DNA of 32,998 nt from Alphaproteobacteria bacterium (lineage in GTDB: Bacteria; Pseudomonadota; Alphaproteobacteria; Rs-D84). Shown here one piece after another: positions 26,769 to 32,998 of this stretch. Within the stretch, counting starts at the first letter, position 1, and each line of letters opens with the position of its first letter. The stretch spans positions 1-32,998 of the forward strand of contig JAFXGD010000002.1 of NCBI GenBank assembly GCA_017513285.1. The letters run 5' to 3'. The notes beneath the pieces are model-generated. The model saw nothing but the letters and a program-made list of their open reading frames with translations, searched no databases and was not told the origin of the DNA. The position numbers and the translations under genes were made by a program.

Positions 26769-27797
26769 ATGATTGAAAAAAACTGGATGACTTTGATTAA
26801 GCCAAAGAAATTGACAATCAAAGTTGATGAACATAATCCTAATATTGCTACATTGGTTGCGGAACCTTTGGAAAAAGGTTTTGGTTTGACATTGGGGACT
26901 GCATTACGTCGTGTATTGTTGTCGTCTTTGCAGGGATGTGCGCCAATCTATATCAAAATTGATGGTGTGCAACACGAATTTTCCAGTGTTTCTGGCATCC
27001 GTGAAGATGTGACGGATATTATATTGAATTTAAAGGGCGTTTATTTCAAAGCGTTAAGCGAAGGTCAACACAAAGCTTATTTGAAAGTTAAAGGTCCGGC
27101 TGTCGTAACCGCAGGTATGATTGAAACAACCGGCGGTGTCGAAGTTATGAATAAAGATGTTGAAATTTGTACTTTGGATAAAGGTGCGAATTTGGATATG
27201 GAAATTACGTTGGGTACGGGTCGTGGTTATGTGCCTGCATCACAACATTCGGATGGTTTGCCATTGGGTGTTATTCCCGTGGATTCAATCTTTTCGCCAA
27301 TTTTGAATGTCGCCAGCGATGTTTTGCCAACACGTGTTGGTCAATCTACGGACTATGACAAATTGGAATTGACGGTAAAAACAAATGGTTCTGTGTCCCC
27401 AGAAGATGCAATCGCATTTGCAGCACGTATTTTGACGGATCAATTGGTTGTCTTTATCAATTTCGAAGATCCTGCACAAATCAGTGCGCCAAGCGATGAC
27501 GAAAAAGCAAAAGACGCTTTGCCATTTGATCCAAAATTATTAAAATATGTTGATGAATTGGAATTGTCTGTTCGTGCAAATAATTGCCTGAAGAATGACA
27601 AAATCAATTGGTTGGGCGAATTGGTTCAAAAGACCGAAGCCGACATGTTAAAAACACCAAACTTTGGCCGCAAATCTTTGAACGAAATCAAAGTTCAATT
27701 AGAAGCCATGGGCTTAGGTTTGGGTATGGAAGTACCAGGTTGGCCACCTGAAAATATTGCAGAGTTGGCCAAAAAGTACGAAGATCCATACAAATAA
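26769..27797 (+). CDS. rpoA: RNA polymerase alpha subunit
   Basis: A 342-aa protein. The N-terminal assembly domain (about 1-235) contains [26 protein letters not shown], the alpha dimerisation signature, and GRGYVPA. The C-terminal domain (about 260-330) contains [19 protein letters not shown] and [13 protein letters not shown], which bind UP elements and activators. Length is normal. The start at 26769 has AAGGGGTAATGA upstream. Normally rpoA is within rpsM-rpsK-rpoA-rplQ; here the gene before it belongs to an unknown family, rpoA has its own promoter, and a long hairpin and a 52-aa gene separate it from rplQ. Confidence 0.98.
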
Positions 27798-27900
27798 ATT
27801 AAATTCTGTGGACGCTTGTCGTGTTTGTCGGTTCTTATGCGGGTCAACTGCACTGCGAACCGCCAAACACCGCCAATCGTCGCACATAATTTAATTTTTT
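27796..27900 (+). repeat. Very long imperfect inverted repeat (hairpin) after rpoA
   Basis: Two arms, 27796-27834 and 27857-27897, pair over almost their whole length: CGGTTC/GAACCG, GTGTTTG/CAAACAC, CTTG with CAA-C, GACG/CGTC, TGTG/CACA and a 10-bp AT-rich base (AAATTAAATT region with AATTTAATTT), broken by a few mismatches and one small internal loop. The apical loop is 22 nt. A run of T follows (27895-27900). The base of the stem includes the rpoA stop codon. It may act as an oversized terminator or a stable structured RNA. It does not carry the SRP RNA or 6S RNA consensus. Confidence 0.75.
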
Positions 27901-27946
27901 AGAATATGTGACACGGCATACTGTTATGTCAAACAAGGAGGCAGAA

Positions 27947-28105
27947 ATGTCTGAAAAAACAAAGAAAGAGAACTTAAAAAAGGCCACCAGAAAAGTGAGT
28001 TGGTTGGAAAAAACTTTGAGTGTCTTGTTTTATGGTGAATCTGCCTTGAGAGATGACTTTTACAGCAGTGAACGTGTAAAAGATATTAAAAGGAAGCAAA
28101 GATAA
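27947..28105 (+). CDS. Small basic protein of 52 aa between rpoA and rplQ
   Basis: Starts MSEKTKKENLKKATRKVSW and ends VKDIKRKQR; very rich in Lys, Arg and Glu, with a short hydrophobic centre (WLEKTLSVLFYGES). No signal peptide, no family recognised. It has the best ribosome binding site in the window, AAGGAGG at 27935-27941, 5 nt before the ATG, which also settles the start over an in-frame ATG at 27926. Its charge suggests RNA or ribosome contact, but that is only inference from composition and position. Confidence 0.75.
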   Translation: MSEKTKKENLKKATRKVSWLEKTLSVLFYGESALRDDFYSSERVKDIKRKQR

Positions 28106-28115
28106 AAATTTAATC

Positions 28116-28179
28116 CCACGGTTCTGGCATTTGATGTCAGGTTGTGGACGTCTCAAAAAAATCCCATCATGGTGGTGGG
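28116..28179 (+). promoter_or_regulatory. Two-hairpin leader upstream of rplQ
   Basis: The first hairpin pairs CCAC (28116-28119) with GTGG (28044+100, i.e. 28144-28147) outside an inner CTGGCAT/ATGTCAG stem (28124-28130 with 28134-28140). The second pairs CCCATCA (28163-28169) with TGGTGGG (28173-28179), loop TGG. No T run follows, so neither is an evident terminator. It may be a regulatory leader of rplQ. Confidence 0.4.
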
Positions 28180-28204
28180 CGGAAACAAAATAAAGGAGTA
28201 ATCG

Positions 28205-28693
28205 ATGAGACATATGAAAGCGGGTCGTACATTCAATCGCGACACAAATGCACGCAAAGCCTTGTTTGTTGGTTTGGCGAAAAACTTGATTGAAAAAGAA
28301 CAGATTAAAACAACTTTGCCAAAAGCAAAAGATTTGCGCAGTGTAGTTGAAAAATTGATTACTCGTGCCAAAGTTGATACTGTTGCAAACCGTCGTTTGA
28401 CCGCATCGGAATTGGGTAATGCATCGGCGGCAACTGTTAAAAAGTTGTTTGATGTTTTGGGTAAACGCTATGCCAATCGTCCAGGTGGTTATACACGTGT
28501 CTTGAAAGCGGGCTTCCGTTATGGTGATGCGGCACCTATGGCGATTATCGAATTGGTTGATCGTGATGTGAACGCAAAGAAAGCACCAGTTGCGGCAGAA
28601 GAAGCGCCAGCTGTGGCAGAAGAGGTTGTAGCGGAAGAAAAAGCCGAGAAGAAAACATCTGCAAAAAAATCAACCGCCAAAAAGGCAGAGTAA
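28205..28693 (+). CDS. rplQ: 50S ribosomal protein L17
   Basis: A 162-aa protein. The first 117 or so residues are a standard bacterial L17: [48 protein letters not shown] and [24 protein letters not shown]17 sits at the peptide exit tunnel region of the large subunit. The remaining 45 residues are an Ala/Glu/Val stretch and then a Lys/Ala/Ser tail, a non-conserved extension like the one on L28 here. AAAGGAG lies 7 nt before the ATG. Ends at a strong terminator. Confidence 0.98.
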
Positions 28694-28705
28694 TTATATC
28701 TGAAA

Positions 28706-28737
28706 AATAAAAAACCGCCATATGGCGGTTTTTTATT
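28706..28737 (+). terminator. Terminator of rplQ
   Basis: A perfect palindrome AAAAAACCGCCA-TA-TGGCGGTTTTTT flanked by AT on both sides. Confidence 0.9.
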
Positions 28738-28748
28738 TGATAAAAGTC

Positions 28749-28777
28749 TTTACCAAGTATTTTTATTGTGTTAAAAT
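28749..28777 (+). promoter_or_regulatory. Promoter of the giant Cys-rich gene pair
   Basis: TTTACC (28749-28754), a 17-bp spacer and TAAAAT (28772-28777), 28 nt before the ATG at 28806. Confidence 0.55.
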
Positions 28778-28805
28778 GAATCATAATAGTTGGAAGGGAT
28801 TTTAC

Positions 28806-31541
28806 ATGAATAAATTTGGCATATCACTTTTGTGTTTGATGACATTTATGGCGGATTCTGTTGCGGCGCCTGCTGTACGCAGGGGGCGTAATGATACGAC
28901 CACGGCAACCACCACCACAACAACAACTGCGGCACGGGCGGCGGTGCGCGGTGCATCGCGTACGTCGGGTGGCGGTGATGCGACAACCACTGTGGCGGCA
29001 CGCAGTGCATCACGGGCGCCGGTTGCGGCACGGGCGGCCACGGCATCAACGGTTGTTGCACGTGCAGGGGCCAAGCAAAATGTTATCAGTACCGGTACAA
29101 AAGTTGCGGCGGCAACACAGAATACGGCGGTCAGTGCCGAATGCCGACAGAAATTTGAAGGATGTATGGATTCTTTTTGTATGTTGGATAATGAAACCGG
29201 TGGTCGTTGCATCTGCAGTAATAAAAATGCCGAATTTGATGATATTTTGGCCGAAATAGAAAAATTAGATCAGCAATCTTATCAAATGGCGACATTGGGG
29301 TTGGAACGGTTGCAAATGGGTGCCGATGCCGATGCGGCAATTGCCAATGCAAATGCGGCCGCCGATGCTGTTTTAAGGGGTGGTCAGAATACGGATGCGC
29401 GTTCGGCATTGGATTTGTCTATGTGGGATACGCCAATTGATATTGAAGAGGTCGAAGAGTCTATCTTTGGGGGCAGTGAATCAGCCATTGCAGGTAAAGA
29501 GGGTGATGCGCTGTATAATGAAGCCACCAATATTTGTGCGACCCAGGTGCCAGAGTGTGCATCTGATATGAATATGTTAAAGTTAATGTATCTGCAACGT
29601 ATCAAATCGGATTGTGCGGCATATGAAAACAGTTTAAAGGCACGTCGTAATGACAGTCAGAAAAAACTGACCGCCGCCGAACAGGCGTTGCGTGAAGAAG
29701 CGTTAACCCAATTGCGTTCTGCGAATAGATATGATTTGGGCGAATGTACAATTGAATTCAAGAGTTGTATGCAAACAACAGCCGGTTGTGGTAAAGATTT
29801 TGCACAATGTGCATCAATTGCCGCAATGGATGCGACAAATTCTTCGACGAAATCTTCGAAATCACCGAAAAAGTTTGCTATCCAAGGGGCGGCGACCGTT
29901 ATTGAAATTCAAGCGACAACATATGATACTTTGATGGGCAAAAAGCCATTGTGCGAAACGGTATTAAAGTCTTGCACATTGGTGGCGGATAAAGTTTGGG
30001 ATACTTTCTTGAAAGAAGTTGCGCCACAGTTAAAAAGTGCGGAATTAATTGCAGAAGATAATGTACGTCAGAATTGCATTGGTAATATTGCATCTTGTTT
30101 CCAGAAGGCCTGTAAAGATAACATGGATCCAAATGATCCGGATGGGTCGTATGACGTGTGTTTGTCACGGCCGGAAACCATGTTGGATTTTTGTAAGGTG
30201 CCATTGAATGCATGTGGTATTGTTGCCACGGTCGAAGGGGCAGAAGAAAATCAGATTTGGGGCTTTGTAAAAGATCGTTTGGCATCTATTCGTGTTGATT
30301 CGTGTACGAAATCAATTAAAGAATGCTTGACCGCAGAAGACAGGTGCGGTGCAGACTATTCGCAATGTATCGGGTTGGATACAGATACAATTGTTCGTAT
30401 GTGCCCAGAAGAAAAACTGTTCGGATGTGAAGTGCAATCGGCAGAAAAGACGGGTGGGGTGGATGTGTACGAACGTATTGAATCCTATATCACGGGTATC
30501 ATGTTGAATATGGATAATAATTTCTTGAAGCAGTGTCAAAAAGCCGCCGATGAAGCCATGATTCGTGTTTGTGGTGATACAGAAAACTGTAATGCATTGA
30601 CAATTGATGATGGAATTGGTTCCCGTTCTTTGGAATATAAATTGTGCAAGGTTAATGAAGCGGGTGAGCCGATTGACAGCAAATGCGCACAAACAGTGGA
30701 TCAGATTTTGGATAACGAATTGGGGTATGGTTGTGAGGAAAAATCGGCCGAAGGCGATTGTATAAAATGGAATGACCGTATTAATTATGCGGGACATGTG
30801 GTTGGGGTTATTCCATGGGATATGGTTGAATTCTTTGATGAAAATGGTGATTTAAAACCTGATAGTGCAATATATGACAGATATGACGATTTGACAGAAG
30901 AAGAGCAGGCGGAAATAAAATTGCTGTATCGTAACGTCAAAATGGCAATTGATACAATCGAATCTGATACACGGGTTGATTTTTGTATGAATGGTCGTCA
31001 GGTTCAAGGACTGCGTAAGTCCACCGATGATGGCGATTTTATATCTATGTTTGGCAAGGAAAATCAGCGCTTTGATGCATTGACAAAACAAATGCGTCAA
31101 AAAATTGCGACGGCGGCATTAAAGAAGGCCAAAGATAATTATGCAAAGAAAATGGATGAATTTGCAGAACGTAAGGCCCAAGACTATGTTGCACTGGGCC
31201 AGCGTATCGCAGCCGCAGAACAGAAAAATGCGTATGATGCACGACGTGAAGATGCACGTATCGCATGTGTTAATATGGCAAAGAGTGCAACATTGGGAAC
31301 ATCGTATGGAAAACGGAATTTGAAATCTGTGGCGTATGATACCAATGTGGCGCCGGATACTTTGATTGGTTCGCATTCACGTAATGATTGGAATTATAAA
31401 GAAGTGACGACCACTACATTTGATATGGAAACATTAATGTGTACCAAGTGTGTACGTGTGCAAACGTGTACAAAGCCAAAACGTAAATGGTGTAAAACCT
31501 GGGGCGAGGAAAAAGAAACATGCACCAATATTCAATTATAG
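28806..31541 (+). CDS. Giant secreted cysteine-rich protein, paralogue 1 (911 aa)
   Basis: Signal peptide (MNKFGISLLCLMTFMADSVA), then about 85 residues of Thr/Ala/Arg-rich low complexity with a DNA-level repeat (GCGGCACGGGCGGC twice). From about residue 112 on come many cysteine modules with a fixed C-x6-C step: CRQKFEGC, CATQVPEC, CTIEFKSC, CETVLKSC, CIGNIASC, CKVPLNAC, CTKSIKEC. Two stretches (29745-29810, 30303-30368) have four cysteines exactly seven apart. A charged coiled-coil-like region (about 760-830) precedes a Cys-rich end (CTKCVRVQTC, KWCKTWGEEKETC). No known family or catalytic motif is recognised. The start at 28806 has GGAAGGG upstream; the frame before it is promoter. Probably a disulphide-stabilised periplasmic or surface structural protein. 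The next gene, a paralogue, overlaps its end by 22 nt. Confidence 0.85.
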   Translation: MNKFGISLLCLMTFMADSVAAPAVRRGRNDTTTATTTTTTTAARAAVRGASRTSGGGDATTTVAARSASRAPVAARAATASTVVARAGAKQNVISTGTKVAAATQNTAVSAECRQKFEGCMDSFCMLDNETGGRCICSNKNAEFDDILAEIEKLDQQSYQMATLGLERLQMGADADAAIANANAAADAVLRGGQNTDARSALDLSMWDTPIDIEEVEESIFGGSESAIAGKEGDALYNEATNICATQVPECASDMNMLKLMYLQRIKSDCAAYENSLKARRNDSQKKLTAAEQALREEALTQLRSANRYDLGECTIEFKSCMQTTAGCGKDFAQCASIAAMDATNSSTKSSKSPKKFAIQGAATVIEIQATTYDTLMGKKPLCETVLKSCTLVADKVWDTFLKEVAPQLKSAELIAEDNVRQNCIGNIASCFQKACKDNMDPNDPDGSYDVCLSRPETMLDFCKVPLNACGIVATVEGAEENQIWGFVKDRLASIRVDSCTKSIKECLTAEDRCGADYSQCIGLDTDTIVRMCPEEKLFGCEVQSAEKTGGVDVYERIESYITGIMLNMDNNFLKQCQKAADEAMIRVCGDTENCNALTIDDGIGSRSLEYKLCKVNEAGEPIDSKCAQTVDQILDNELGYGCEEKSAEGDCIKWNDRINYAGHVVGVIPWDMVEFFDENGDLKPDSAIYDRYDDLTEEEQAEIKLLYRNVKMAIDTIESDTRVDFCMNGRQVQGLRKSTDDGDFISMFGKENQRFDALTKQMRQKIATAALKKAKDNYAKKMDEFAERKAQDYVALGQRIAAAEQKNAYDARREDARIACVNMAKSATLGTSYGKRNLKSVAYDTNVAPDTLIGSHSRNDWNYKEVTTTTFDMETLMCTKCVRVQTCTKPKRKWCKTWGEEKETCTNIQL

Positions 31542-32998
31542 GTCTTGTTATTTCGACATTGTGTTATGTGGGATTGGTGGGGAATGTGGCCGTTGCGGCT
31601 GCGGCCCCACAGTCTAAACAATCTGTTGTGTCGGCGGGGACAAATGTTGTGGCCGCAACGGCGGATACAACCATATCCAATACATGTAAAGACAAATTTA
31701 ATGGATGTATGGATTTAATGTGCATGGATGATAATGTCAGTGGTGGCAGATGTCTGTGTAATAATAAAATCTTTGAATTAGAAAAAATCGCATCCAGTAT
31801 AACTGATATTAATTTGCAATCGGTGACGTTGGAAAATTTTGGTGAAACGGCATTGTCCGATACACCCGTGACTGTCAAAAATAAAAAATCTGGGTTGGAT
31901 TTGTCTATGTGGGATTCTGATGTGTCGGAATTTGATGACGAAGATGATTCAGAATCGGATGCAGATGATTTGGTGCGTGGTGGCGCTTTGATGGCGCAGT
32001 CCGCCCGGTTATGTGGCGACAGATTTCCCGAATGTGCAAATGATATTTCTGTGCTGACGGCGATGTATGATGCGTCGACACGGTCCGACTGTGCGGCATA
32101 TGAAAACGCATTAAAGAAGCAAAAGACAGATGCCAATCGTAAATTGGCATCGGCACAAAGTGCGATGCGCACGGCGGCATTGGATAAATTGCAATCTGCG
32201 AATAAATATGATTTGGGCGAATGTACAATCGCATTTACAGAATGTATGCAAACGACGGCGGAATGCGGAACTGATTTTTCCAAATGTGCTGTATTGGTTG
32301 CAATGGATAATGCGGGTACACGTTCCATGACGAACGGTGACACATACAAAATTACGGGTGTTGGTTCGGGGGTTGAGATATCGGCATCGACATATGACGT
32401 GTTGGAATCAAAGCGTCCGCTGTGTGACACGGTATTAAAATCATGCACATCGGTTGCGGATAAAGTGTGGGATGCGTTTTTGCATGCGAATGCAGCCCAG
32501 ATAAAAAGTGCAGAATTGATTGCGGAAAACAATGTCCGCCAAGAATGTATTGGACGTATATCTGATTGCTTTGTAAAGGGATGTAAAGACAACATTGACC
32601 CCAGTGATCCGGATGGTTCTTATGATGCATGTTTGACCCGGCCGGAAACGATGATGTCGATATGTACGGTTCCATTAAATTCATGTGGTGTTGATACGTC
32701 CGATGTTGACACGGCACGGGCGGCACCGATATGGAACTTTGTTGTGGACAGATTGGCATCCATGCGTGTTGATTCATGCACGTCTGCGGTTAAGGAATGC
32801 TTGACTGCAGAAGGCAGGTGTGGGCCGGATTATTCGAACTGTGTTGGGTTGGATACAGACACGATAATTCGCATGTGTCCATATGATAAATTGGTTGGGT
32901 GTCAGCAGAAATATGGTGATGTTGAAATTCGTGGTGATGCGGTCTATGACGAATTGGCGACGATGGTACGTGGTTTGATGGTAAATATAGATAATAAA
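31520..32998 (+). CDS. Giant secreted cysteine-rich protein, paralogue 2 (3' partial)
   Basis: 493 codons are open from ATG 31520 to the window edge. Signal peptide MHQYSIIGLVISTLCYVGLV...AVA, then a module order the same as in the gene before it: CKDKFNGCMDLMCM, GLDLSMWDSD, CGDRFPEC, SDCAAYENALKK, YDLGECTIAFTEC, CDTVLKSC, CIGRISDC, NIDPSDPDGSYDACLTRPETM, CTVPLNSC, RVDSCTSAVKEC and GLDTDTIIRMCP. The Thr-rich linker of paralogue 1 is almost absent and an acidic stretch (DVSEFDDEDDSESDADD) is added. The two C-x6-C-x6-C-x6-C ladders are kept (32222-32287, 32777-32842). AGGA lies 9-10 nt before the ATG, within the end of paralogue 1, so the two are co-translated. Function unknown. Confidence 0.85.
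   Translation, partial: MHQYSIIGLVISTLCYVGLVGNVAVAAAAPQSKQSVVSAGTNVVAATADTTISNTCKDKFNGCMDLMCMDDNVSGGRCLCNNKIFELEKIASSITDINLQSVTLENFGETALSDTPVTVKNKKSGLDLSMWDSDVSEFDDEDDSESDADDLVRGGALMAQSARLCGDRFPECANDISVLTAMYDASTRSDCAAYENALKKQKTDANRKLASAQSAMRTAALDKLQSANKYDLGECTIAFTECMQTTAECGTDFSKCAVLVAMDNAGTRSMTNGDTYKITGVGSGVEISASTYDVLESKRPLCDTVLKSCTSVADKVWDAFLHANAAQIKSAELIAENNVRQECIGRISDCFVKGCKDNIDPSDPDGSYDACLTRPETMMSICTVPLNSCGVDTSDVDTARAAPIWNFVVDRLASMRVDSCTSAVKECLTAEGRCGPDYSNCVGLDTDTIIRMCPYDKLVGCQQKYGDVEIRGDAVYDELATMVRGLMVNIDNK

Follow-up and report, generated by a model that had tools for sequence, protein, structure and literature searches.

Gene arrangement at the contig end

The contig JAFXGD010000002.1 of the alphaproteobacterial assembly GCA_017513285.1, analysed here over positions 1 to 32,998 (hereafter, the window), ends in two overlapping genes on the forward strand, A and B, which encode large, putatively exported proteins whose cysteines recur in C-x6-C pairs. 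Our results suggest that they belong to a multi-copy family restricted to one order of Alphaproteobacteria and held together by intrachain disulphides. Gene A (28806-31541) lies in an open reading frame (ORF) spanning 28722-31541 (939 amino acids, aa), from whose opening at 28722 its residues are numbered. The ATG at 28806 is the likely start because the putative Sec signal peptide MNKFGISLLCLMTFMADSVAA (28806-28868), which has no lipobox, opens there; most homologues also start at this position in the alignment. Counted from this ATG, the protein has 911 aa and 40 cysteines, from C141 on. Gene B (31520-32998) overlaps A by 22 bases and is still open at the window end, where its first 493 aa have been read; in a tblastn-level search of the same genome it shows 52% identity to A. 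A first-pass annotation, made from the letters alone, had described adjacent, overlapping paralogues with an export signal and the shared landmarks LDLSMWD, DPDGSYD and GLDTDTI. All of this holds, the three landmarks being present in both proteins.

The rest of gene B is found on another contig of the same assembly (C12), the end of which is identical to window positions 32858-32998 (141 bases). The two contigs are adjacent, and the identity is an assembly-graph overlap. Contig C12 holds a 5'-open family fragment of 459 aa, which is the remainder of gene B; therefore, adding this fragment to the part in the window, the full gene encodes about 905 aa.

Cysteine spacing and domain layout

Eleven C-x6-C pairs occur in A and eleven in B, against means of 2.03 and 1.48, respectively, in 2000 residue shuffles per protein, of which the maximum reached 7. 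Among spacings from 0 to 15, none but C-x6-C is enriched to such a degree. At least seven pairs per gene in matching order had been noticed before; the count rises to 11 in each and the order does match, although gene B is incomplete in the window. Indeed, all 26 cysteines of B are matched in A, and the two spacing series are nearly identical cysteine by cysteine. This spacing is also kept in homologues, a point on which the first-pass annotation had made its proposal depend: across 42 close homologues, 30 cysteine columns are invariant (residues 141-655 and 755), in addition to three C-terminal ones. Interspecies orthologs share 45-61% identity, yet their cysteine columns are 89-99% identical; the corresponding identities are 90% for RpoA and 82% for ClpX.

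From the N-terminus, the parts follow in the order signal peptide, Ala/Thr/Arg spacer, N-terminal motif, helical core with C-x6-C pairs, coiled coil, beta-rich region, long helices and C-terminal cysteine module. In gene A, the low-complexity Ala/Thr/Arg-rich spacer (28869-29120) has a predicted local distance difference test (pLDDT) score under 50. It is followed by the cysteine-stapled core (residues 134-520, 29121-30281), all-helical in an AlphaFold2 (AF2) model of the core alone. The core opens with the family-defining motif C-x6-C-M-D-x-F-C-x9-C-x-C (C141-C165, 29142-29216), conserved in at least 96 of 97-98 diverse members. Downstream lie a first twin C-x6-C module (C342, C349, C356 and C363; 29745-29810), the C-x6-C pair C411/C418 (29952-29975), of which C411 is predicted to be bonded to C349, the series C452-x6-C459-x4-C464-x15-C480 (30075-30161), with a predicted bond between C464 and C480, the pair C491/C498 (30192-30215), which appears to be a diverged repeat of the 411-418 element, and a second twin module (C528, C535, C542 and C549; 30303-30368). 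The C-terminal cysteine module (C907-C934, 31440-31541), with a predicted C910-C934 bond, ends in the strand ...CTNIQL. By cysteine spacing, the two twin modules of B lie at 32222-32287 (C235-C256) and 32777-32842 (C420-C441).

Profile-profile comparison with hhalign relates the twin modules 342-363 and 528-549 of A to each other (score 42.7; maximum of the shuffled-column control 25.7), and element 411-440 resembles 491-523 (score 20.5; control maximum 17.8). We rejected an internal duplication of the whole 300-residue unit, since repeats scoring above the control were limited to the twin C-x6-C module and a single C-x6-C helix element. In other families of the order, short members (about 300 aa) retain the N-terminal motif (CMDxYC..GRCRCS) and the first helical part and therefore mark the minimal core. 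We define the family by the motif C-x6-C-M-D-x-[FY]-C...[GR]-C-x-C, downstream C-x6-C helical modules and a signal peptide, a combination found in A and B.

At least two classes with differing C-termini can be distinguished. Class I comprises A, B and two of the three C42-type groups, and has the C-terminal module in common. A terminal [ILVFT]-x-[MFL] is present in 87 of 107 class I members, in 1 of 21 class II members and in 9 of 126 background ORFs. We considered a sorting role for this ending and did not retain it; the ending is conserved but may be merely the last strand of the domain. Some members, A not among them, have a glycine-zipper or hydrophobic segment near the C-terminus.

Searches for known relatives

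The first-pass annotation recognised no known family, and we found no credible match either with Pfam, NCBIfam, PHROG and PDB sequences or with Foldseek and VIA-align 2. The sequence searches, run with A, B and 25 members as single proteins and as profiles, returned only chance-level matches to coiled-coil or low-complexity entries; the lone PHROG match (8.6e-5, in 1 of the 25 members) was to a family of unknown function. Profiles of the EGF/laminin type gave EGF_Pikachurin as the best match for A (10.4 bits, E 0.6), below the cut-off of 27 bits, and the myxococcal Cys-rich repeat TIGR04201 matched 1 of 25 members at E 0.32, below its curated cut-off. The viral contigs searched contained no relatives of the family. 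None of these four libraries (Pfam, NCBIfam, PHROG and PDB) has a name for it.

Distribution and evolution of the family

Judging from its genome size and habitat and from the literature (PMC12306168, PMC11257099), the host probably belongs to the genus Ca. Enterousia of the order Rs-D84. Its own genome contains 16 tblastn-level matches across 8 contigs, and each of the 34 congeneric genomes searched carries 5-17. A profile built from 25 members matches 41/41 genomes of the genus and 18/18 other genomes of the order (weakest E 1e-3), while among 385 genomes drawn from Alphaproteobacteria matches were confined to the 5 of this order, leaving 380 without. The lineage restriction that had been put forward as a possibility is therefore supported, all genomes of the order examined having the family. 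Named relatives were sampled from the guts of yak, goat, sheep and other livestock; one (L044), an isolate labelled 'Rickettsiales bacterium', is taken to be of termite origin.

The suggested survey of copy number gave 12, 13 and 10 distinct clear members in genomes G003, G028 and G002, with summed frames of about 9,900, 10,500 and 7,800 aa, respectively. By arithmetic with rounded genome sizes, the family thus takes up about 3% of each 0.8-1.1 Mb genome. With 10-13 members per genome over many loci, at least two classes and even cysteine counts, the picture goes beyond the earlier observation of two genes. Members range from 300 to 1060 aa, the ancient paralogues having 700-1060 aa each. A tree of 97 members resolves the paralogues into at least eight orthologous groups, each spanning more than one species; therefore, most duplications are older than the genus. 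Judging from a close-pair dN/dS of 0.05-0.21, the genes are functional and under purifying selection, with no arms-race selection overall.

Evidence for intrachain disulphides

Of 67 class I members, 66 have an even number of cysteines in the mature protein (values 32 to 42), as do 13 of 19 class II members. On the tree, this number changed at least 12 times within class I, and its parity changed once. Of the cysteines C910 and C934, 52 members have both, 27 have neither and none has just one, and the two change jointly in 7/7 independent comparisons (p 0.016). The presence or absence of C349 and C411 agrees in 95/96 members, with few independent changes, and that of C464 and C480 in 94/96, with just one or two independent changes. 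Three further candidate disulphides, 642/655, 535/542 and 828/849, received no support in the independent-change comparison and were dropped.

The even counts, the joint change of C910 and C934, the conserved cysteines and the dN/dS values suggest closed, intrachain disulphides under a surface that drifts within purifying constraint. The evidence favours about 16-20 disulphides per molecule, the pairing itself being predicted from sequence. The disulphide-rigid build proposed at first is supported by the even counts and by the C910/C934 pair.

Neighbouring genes and the linked DsbA-like protein

Gene contexts were read from stretches around family members. Upstream of A, rpoA and rplQ (26769-28693, forward strand) are conserved neighbours of this locus in relatives; genomes G003, G028 and G002 share the order rpoA-rplQ followed by one or two family genes. 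A second exported protein rich in cysteine (22-36 cysteines, 670-759 aa) is encoded downstream of the rpoA-linked family genes in three genomes (L053:13304-15580, L055:15045-17063, L057:11161-13170); the one copy scanned has no Pfam match.

In most genomes there is one DsbA-family gene, the sole one of its kind. In the window's genome (G000), it lies on contig C42 (L045:4912-5763), 1.6 kb from the C42 family cluster, and encodes a DsbA/ScsC-like protein with a membrane anchor, an N-terminal helical stalk and the motifs CGYC and TGTP (PF13462 E 7.5e-19, PF01323 E 1.2e-17; CxxC and cis-Pro present). Among PDB entries it matches 3gyk and the DsbA-like 4xvw best, followed lower down by copper-resistance (ScsC-type) proteins and DsbC. 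The gene is 1.6-17 kb from the core cluster in 14/17 assessable genomes. In G002 it lies away from the core cluster, with another family gene about 4.4 kb distant; in G036, from another family of the order, it is flanked by a family gene on either side. The first-pass annotation had pointed to linked DsbA or DsbB; the DsbA side of this is borne out by these positions, and the DsbB side is not, as set out below. The protein resembles ScsC and Wolbachia alpha-DsbA2 in its DsbA-like domain, N-terminal extension and CGYC motif (motif comparison in PMC6450060), and differs from them in its membrane anchor, read from the sequence, and in the lack of a detected DsbB/VKOR partner, DsbD not having been searched for. 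It may be an isomerase with the family proteins as clients. Adjoining the C42 family cluster is also a 1269 aa protein (L045:16022-19828) with weak, below-cut-off ankyrin-repeat matches.

One member type (C72) is divergently paired with a gene for a Pom-like outer-membrane protein in 4/4 genomes (L047:7876-9525, PF17251 E 5.6e-9; orthologues at L149:9573-11057, L150:8430-9896 and L151:9480-11105). The Pom-like family, PF17251, is named from Protochlamydia. The window itself encodes an OmpA-domain protein, which is why we assume an outer membrane for this organism. Elsewhere, a 1030 aa OmpA-domain protein contains 36 cysteines (L054:16647-19736), and many further exported cysteine-rich proteins (16-61 cysteines) have no convincing Pfam match (L054:320-973, L054:5194-5781, L057:2424-5105, L047:12832-14235, L052:2638-4707). 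Exported proteins rich in disulphides thus seem to be a broad investment of this order.

A proposed rigid helical scaffold and its alternatives

We propose, with a probability of about 0.5, that the family members are rigid helical scaffolds situated in the periplasm or outer membrane. A and B would be exported by Sec as mostly helical proteins, in which twin C-x6-C modules staple long helices and helical hairpins by intrachain disulphides. After export, the membrane-anchored ScsC/DsbA-like isomerase would probably sort the 16-20 disulphides. The mature proteins would sit on the flexible Ala/Thr/Arg-rich spacer, some members being tethered through a C-terminal glycine-zipper segment, and would serve as load-bearing or spacing elements at the periplasmic or outer-membrane face. 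The export signal, paralogy, cysteine conservation, even cysteine number, distribution and purifying selection in this reading are computed; the role as a rigid envelope element is its least certain part. In its favour we count the even and jointly changing cysteines, their conservation in otherwise diverging orthologs, the low dN/dS, the ancient orthologous groups, the copy number, the nearby DsbA/ScsC-like gene, the Pom-like neighbour of one group and the C-terminal glycine-zipper or hydrophobic segments of some members. Of the first-pass interpretation, the export, paralogy, layout, lineage restriction and disulphide-rigid build stand, and the surface or envelope scaffold is the preferred proposal.

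Several observations weigh against a scaffold of this kind. The envelope location is deduced from sequence, and the even cysteine counts speak against intermolecular cross-links of the kind that typify the best-known cysteine-rich envelope. The DsbA linkage is suggestive, being largely one inherited synteny that weighs scarcely more than a single event. Profile searches that were positive in control genomes detected neither DsbB nor VKOR in 13 genomes (DsbD was not searched for), which leaves no evident source of oxidising power. Confidence in the AF2 models is low, both for the whole of A (pLDDT 58, predicted template-modelling score (pTM) 0.32, from 10 sequences) and for the core 134-520 (mean pLDDT 71, pTM 0.40), which is all helix save one hairpin, with helices of up to 58 residues. 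Foldseek and VIA-align 2 gave no match at E <0.001 for the whole model or the core alone; the best structural match, to spectrin repeats (Z 6.2, 93 residues, root-mean-square deviation 4.0), is within the chance range for helical models. With models this weak, the lack of a fold match says little, and the proteins may have a known fold.

The main rival, which we consider unlikely, holds that these are outward-facing surface adhesins or partner-interaction proteins binding a host, protist or bacterial partner, their disulphides guarding against gut proteases. It would suit the likely host lineage, which has lost most biosynthesis and standard transporters and has been proposed to be partner-dependent (PMC12306168), as well as the tandem duplicates, the large modules, variable in the C-terminal third, and a divergence faster than that of housekeeping genes. 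Nevertheless, the low dN/dS and the old, stable orthologous groups are unlike those of antigenic or host-range proteins and make this less likely, and Pfam and NCBIfam scans of 25 members found no adhesin domain, autotransporter or surface-anchor signal. A bolder form of the scaffold proposal, marginally more doubtful still, would see an order-defining protein exoskeleton of 10-13 stapled helical rods, making up the envelope architecture of these symbiont-like bacteria, occupying about 3% of a 1 Mb genome and oxidised by a new route in an anaerobe without DsbB or VKOR. That the proteins capture nutrients, binding and passing on peptides, lipids or metals in place of the lost transporters, seems improbable. 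Several ancient paralogues, alike in the core and diverging at the C-terminus, would be suited to different substrates, imports have to supply almost all that the organism needs (PMC12306168), and one group is divergently paired with the Pom-like porin gene; Pfam scans, however, revealed no binding-protein or transporter domain, and the predicted all-helical long rod has no evident pocket.

Two readings of the cysteines themselves fare worse. A disulphide-cross-linked network, a chlamydia-like protein sheet, might be expected from the high cysteine content, the high copy number and the Pom-like protein encoded beside one member, but the even number kept through at least 12 changes, the joint gain or loss of C910 and C934, and the absence of a conserved free odd cysteine make it very improbable. 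Metal binding is, if anything, slightly less credible: cysteine-rich repeats are able to bind zinc, but these proteins are exported, carry C-x6-C on helices rather than C-x2-C knuckles (C-x2-C occurs just once in A), gain or lose distant cysteines in pairs, and occur together with a disulphide isomerase gene.

Significance and comparison with known systems

Despite having lost most biosynthesis, these genomes of about 1 Mb retain at least eight ancient paralogues; therefore, the family must do something central to the lifestyle, at a cost unusual for a reduced genome. It provides a natural marker, and an antigen, for this uncultured order of ruminant and termite gut bacteria, and the predicted disulphide pairs make the model directly testable. 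It also poses the question of how a fermentative bacterium in which DsbB and VKOR were not found would make 16-20 disulphides per molecule.

In principle, though not in ancestry, the proposed architecture recalls the twin-CX9C (CHCH) proteins of the mitochondrial intermembrane space, in which helical hairpins are stapled at fixed helical turns with the help of a dedicated oxidoreductase (PMC5404111). In contrast to these, the present family is bacterial, Sec-exported, 300-1060 aa long and without a Pfam CHCH match, and its spacing is 6, not 9, with only 2 C-x9-C pairs in A (1.94 expected by chance) against 11 C-x6-C pairs.

The nearest functional analogues, and not relatives, are the chlamydial cysteine-rich envelope proteins. 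OmcA and OmcB, in their complex with the major outer membrane protein (MOMP), are likewise large cysteine-rich exported envelope proteins of a diderm with a reduced genome and depend on oxidative folding (PMC2811131). In contrast to the two Omc proteins, there are 10-13 paralogues here, with a fold predicted to be helical, and no chlamydial cysteine-rich family is among the Pfam and NCBIfam matches listed for 25 members (E up to 1). Even though both systems would rely on abundant disulphides at the envelope, the even cysteine counts of the present family point to bonds within each chain instead of a network between chains.

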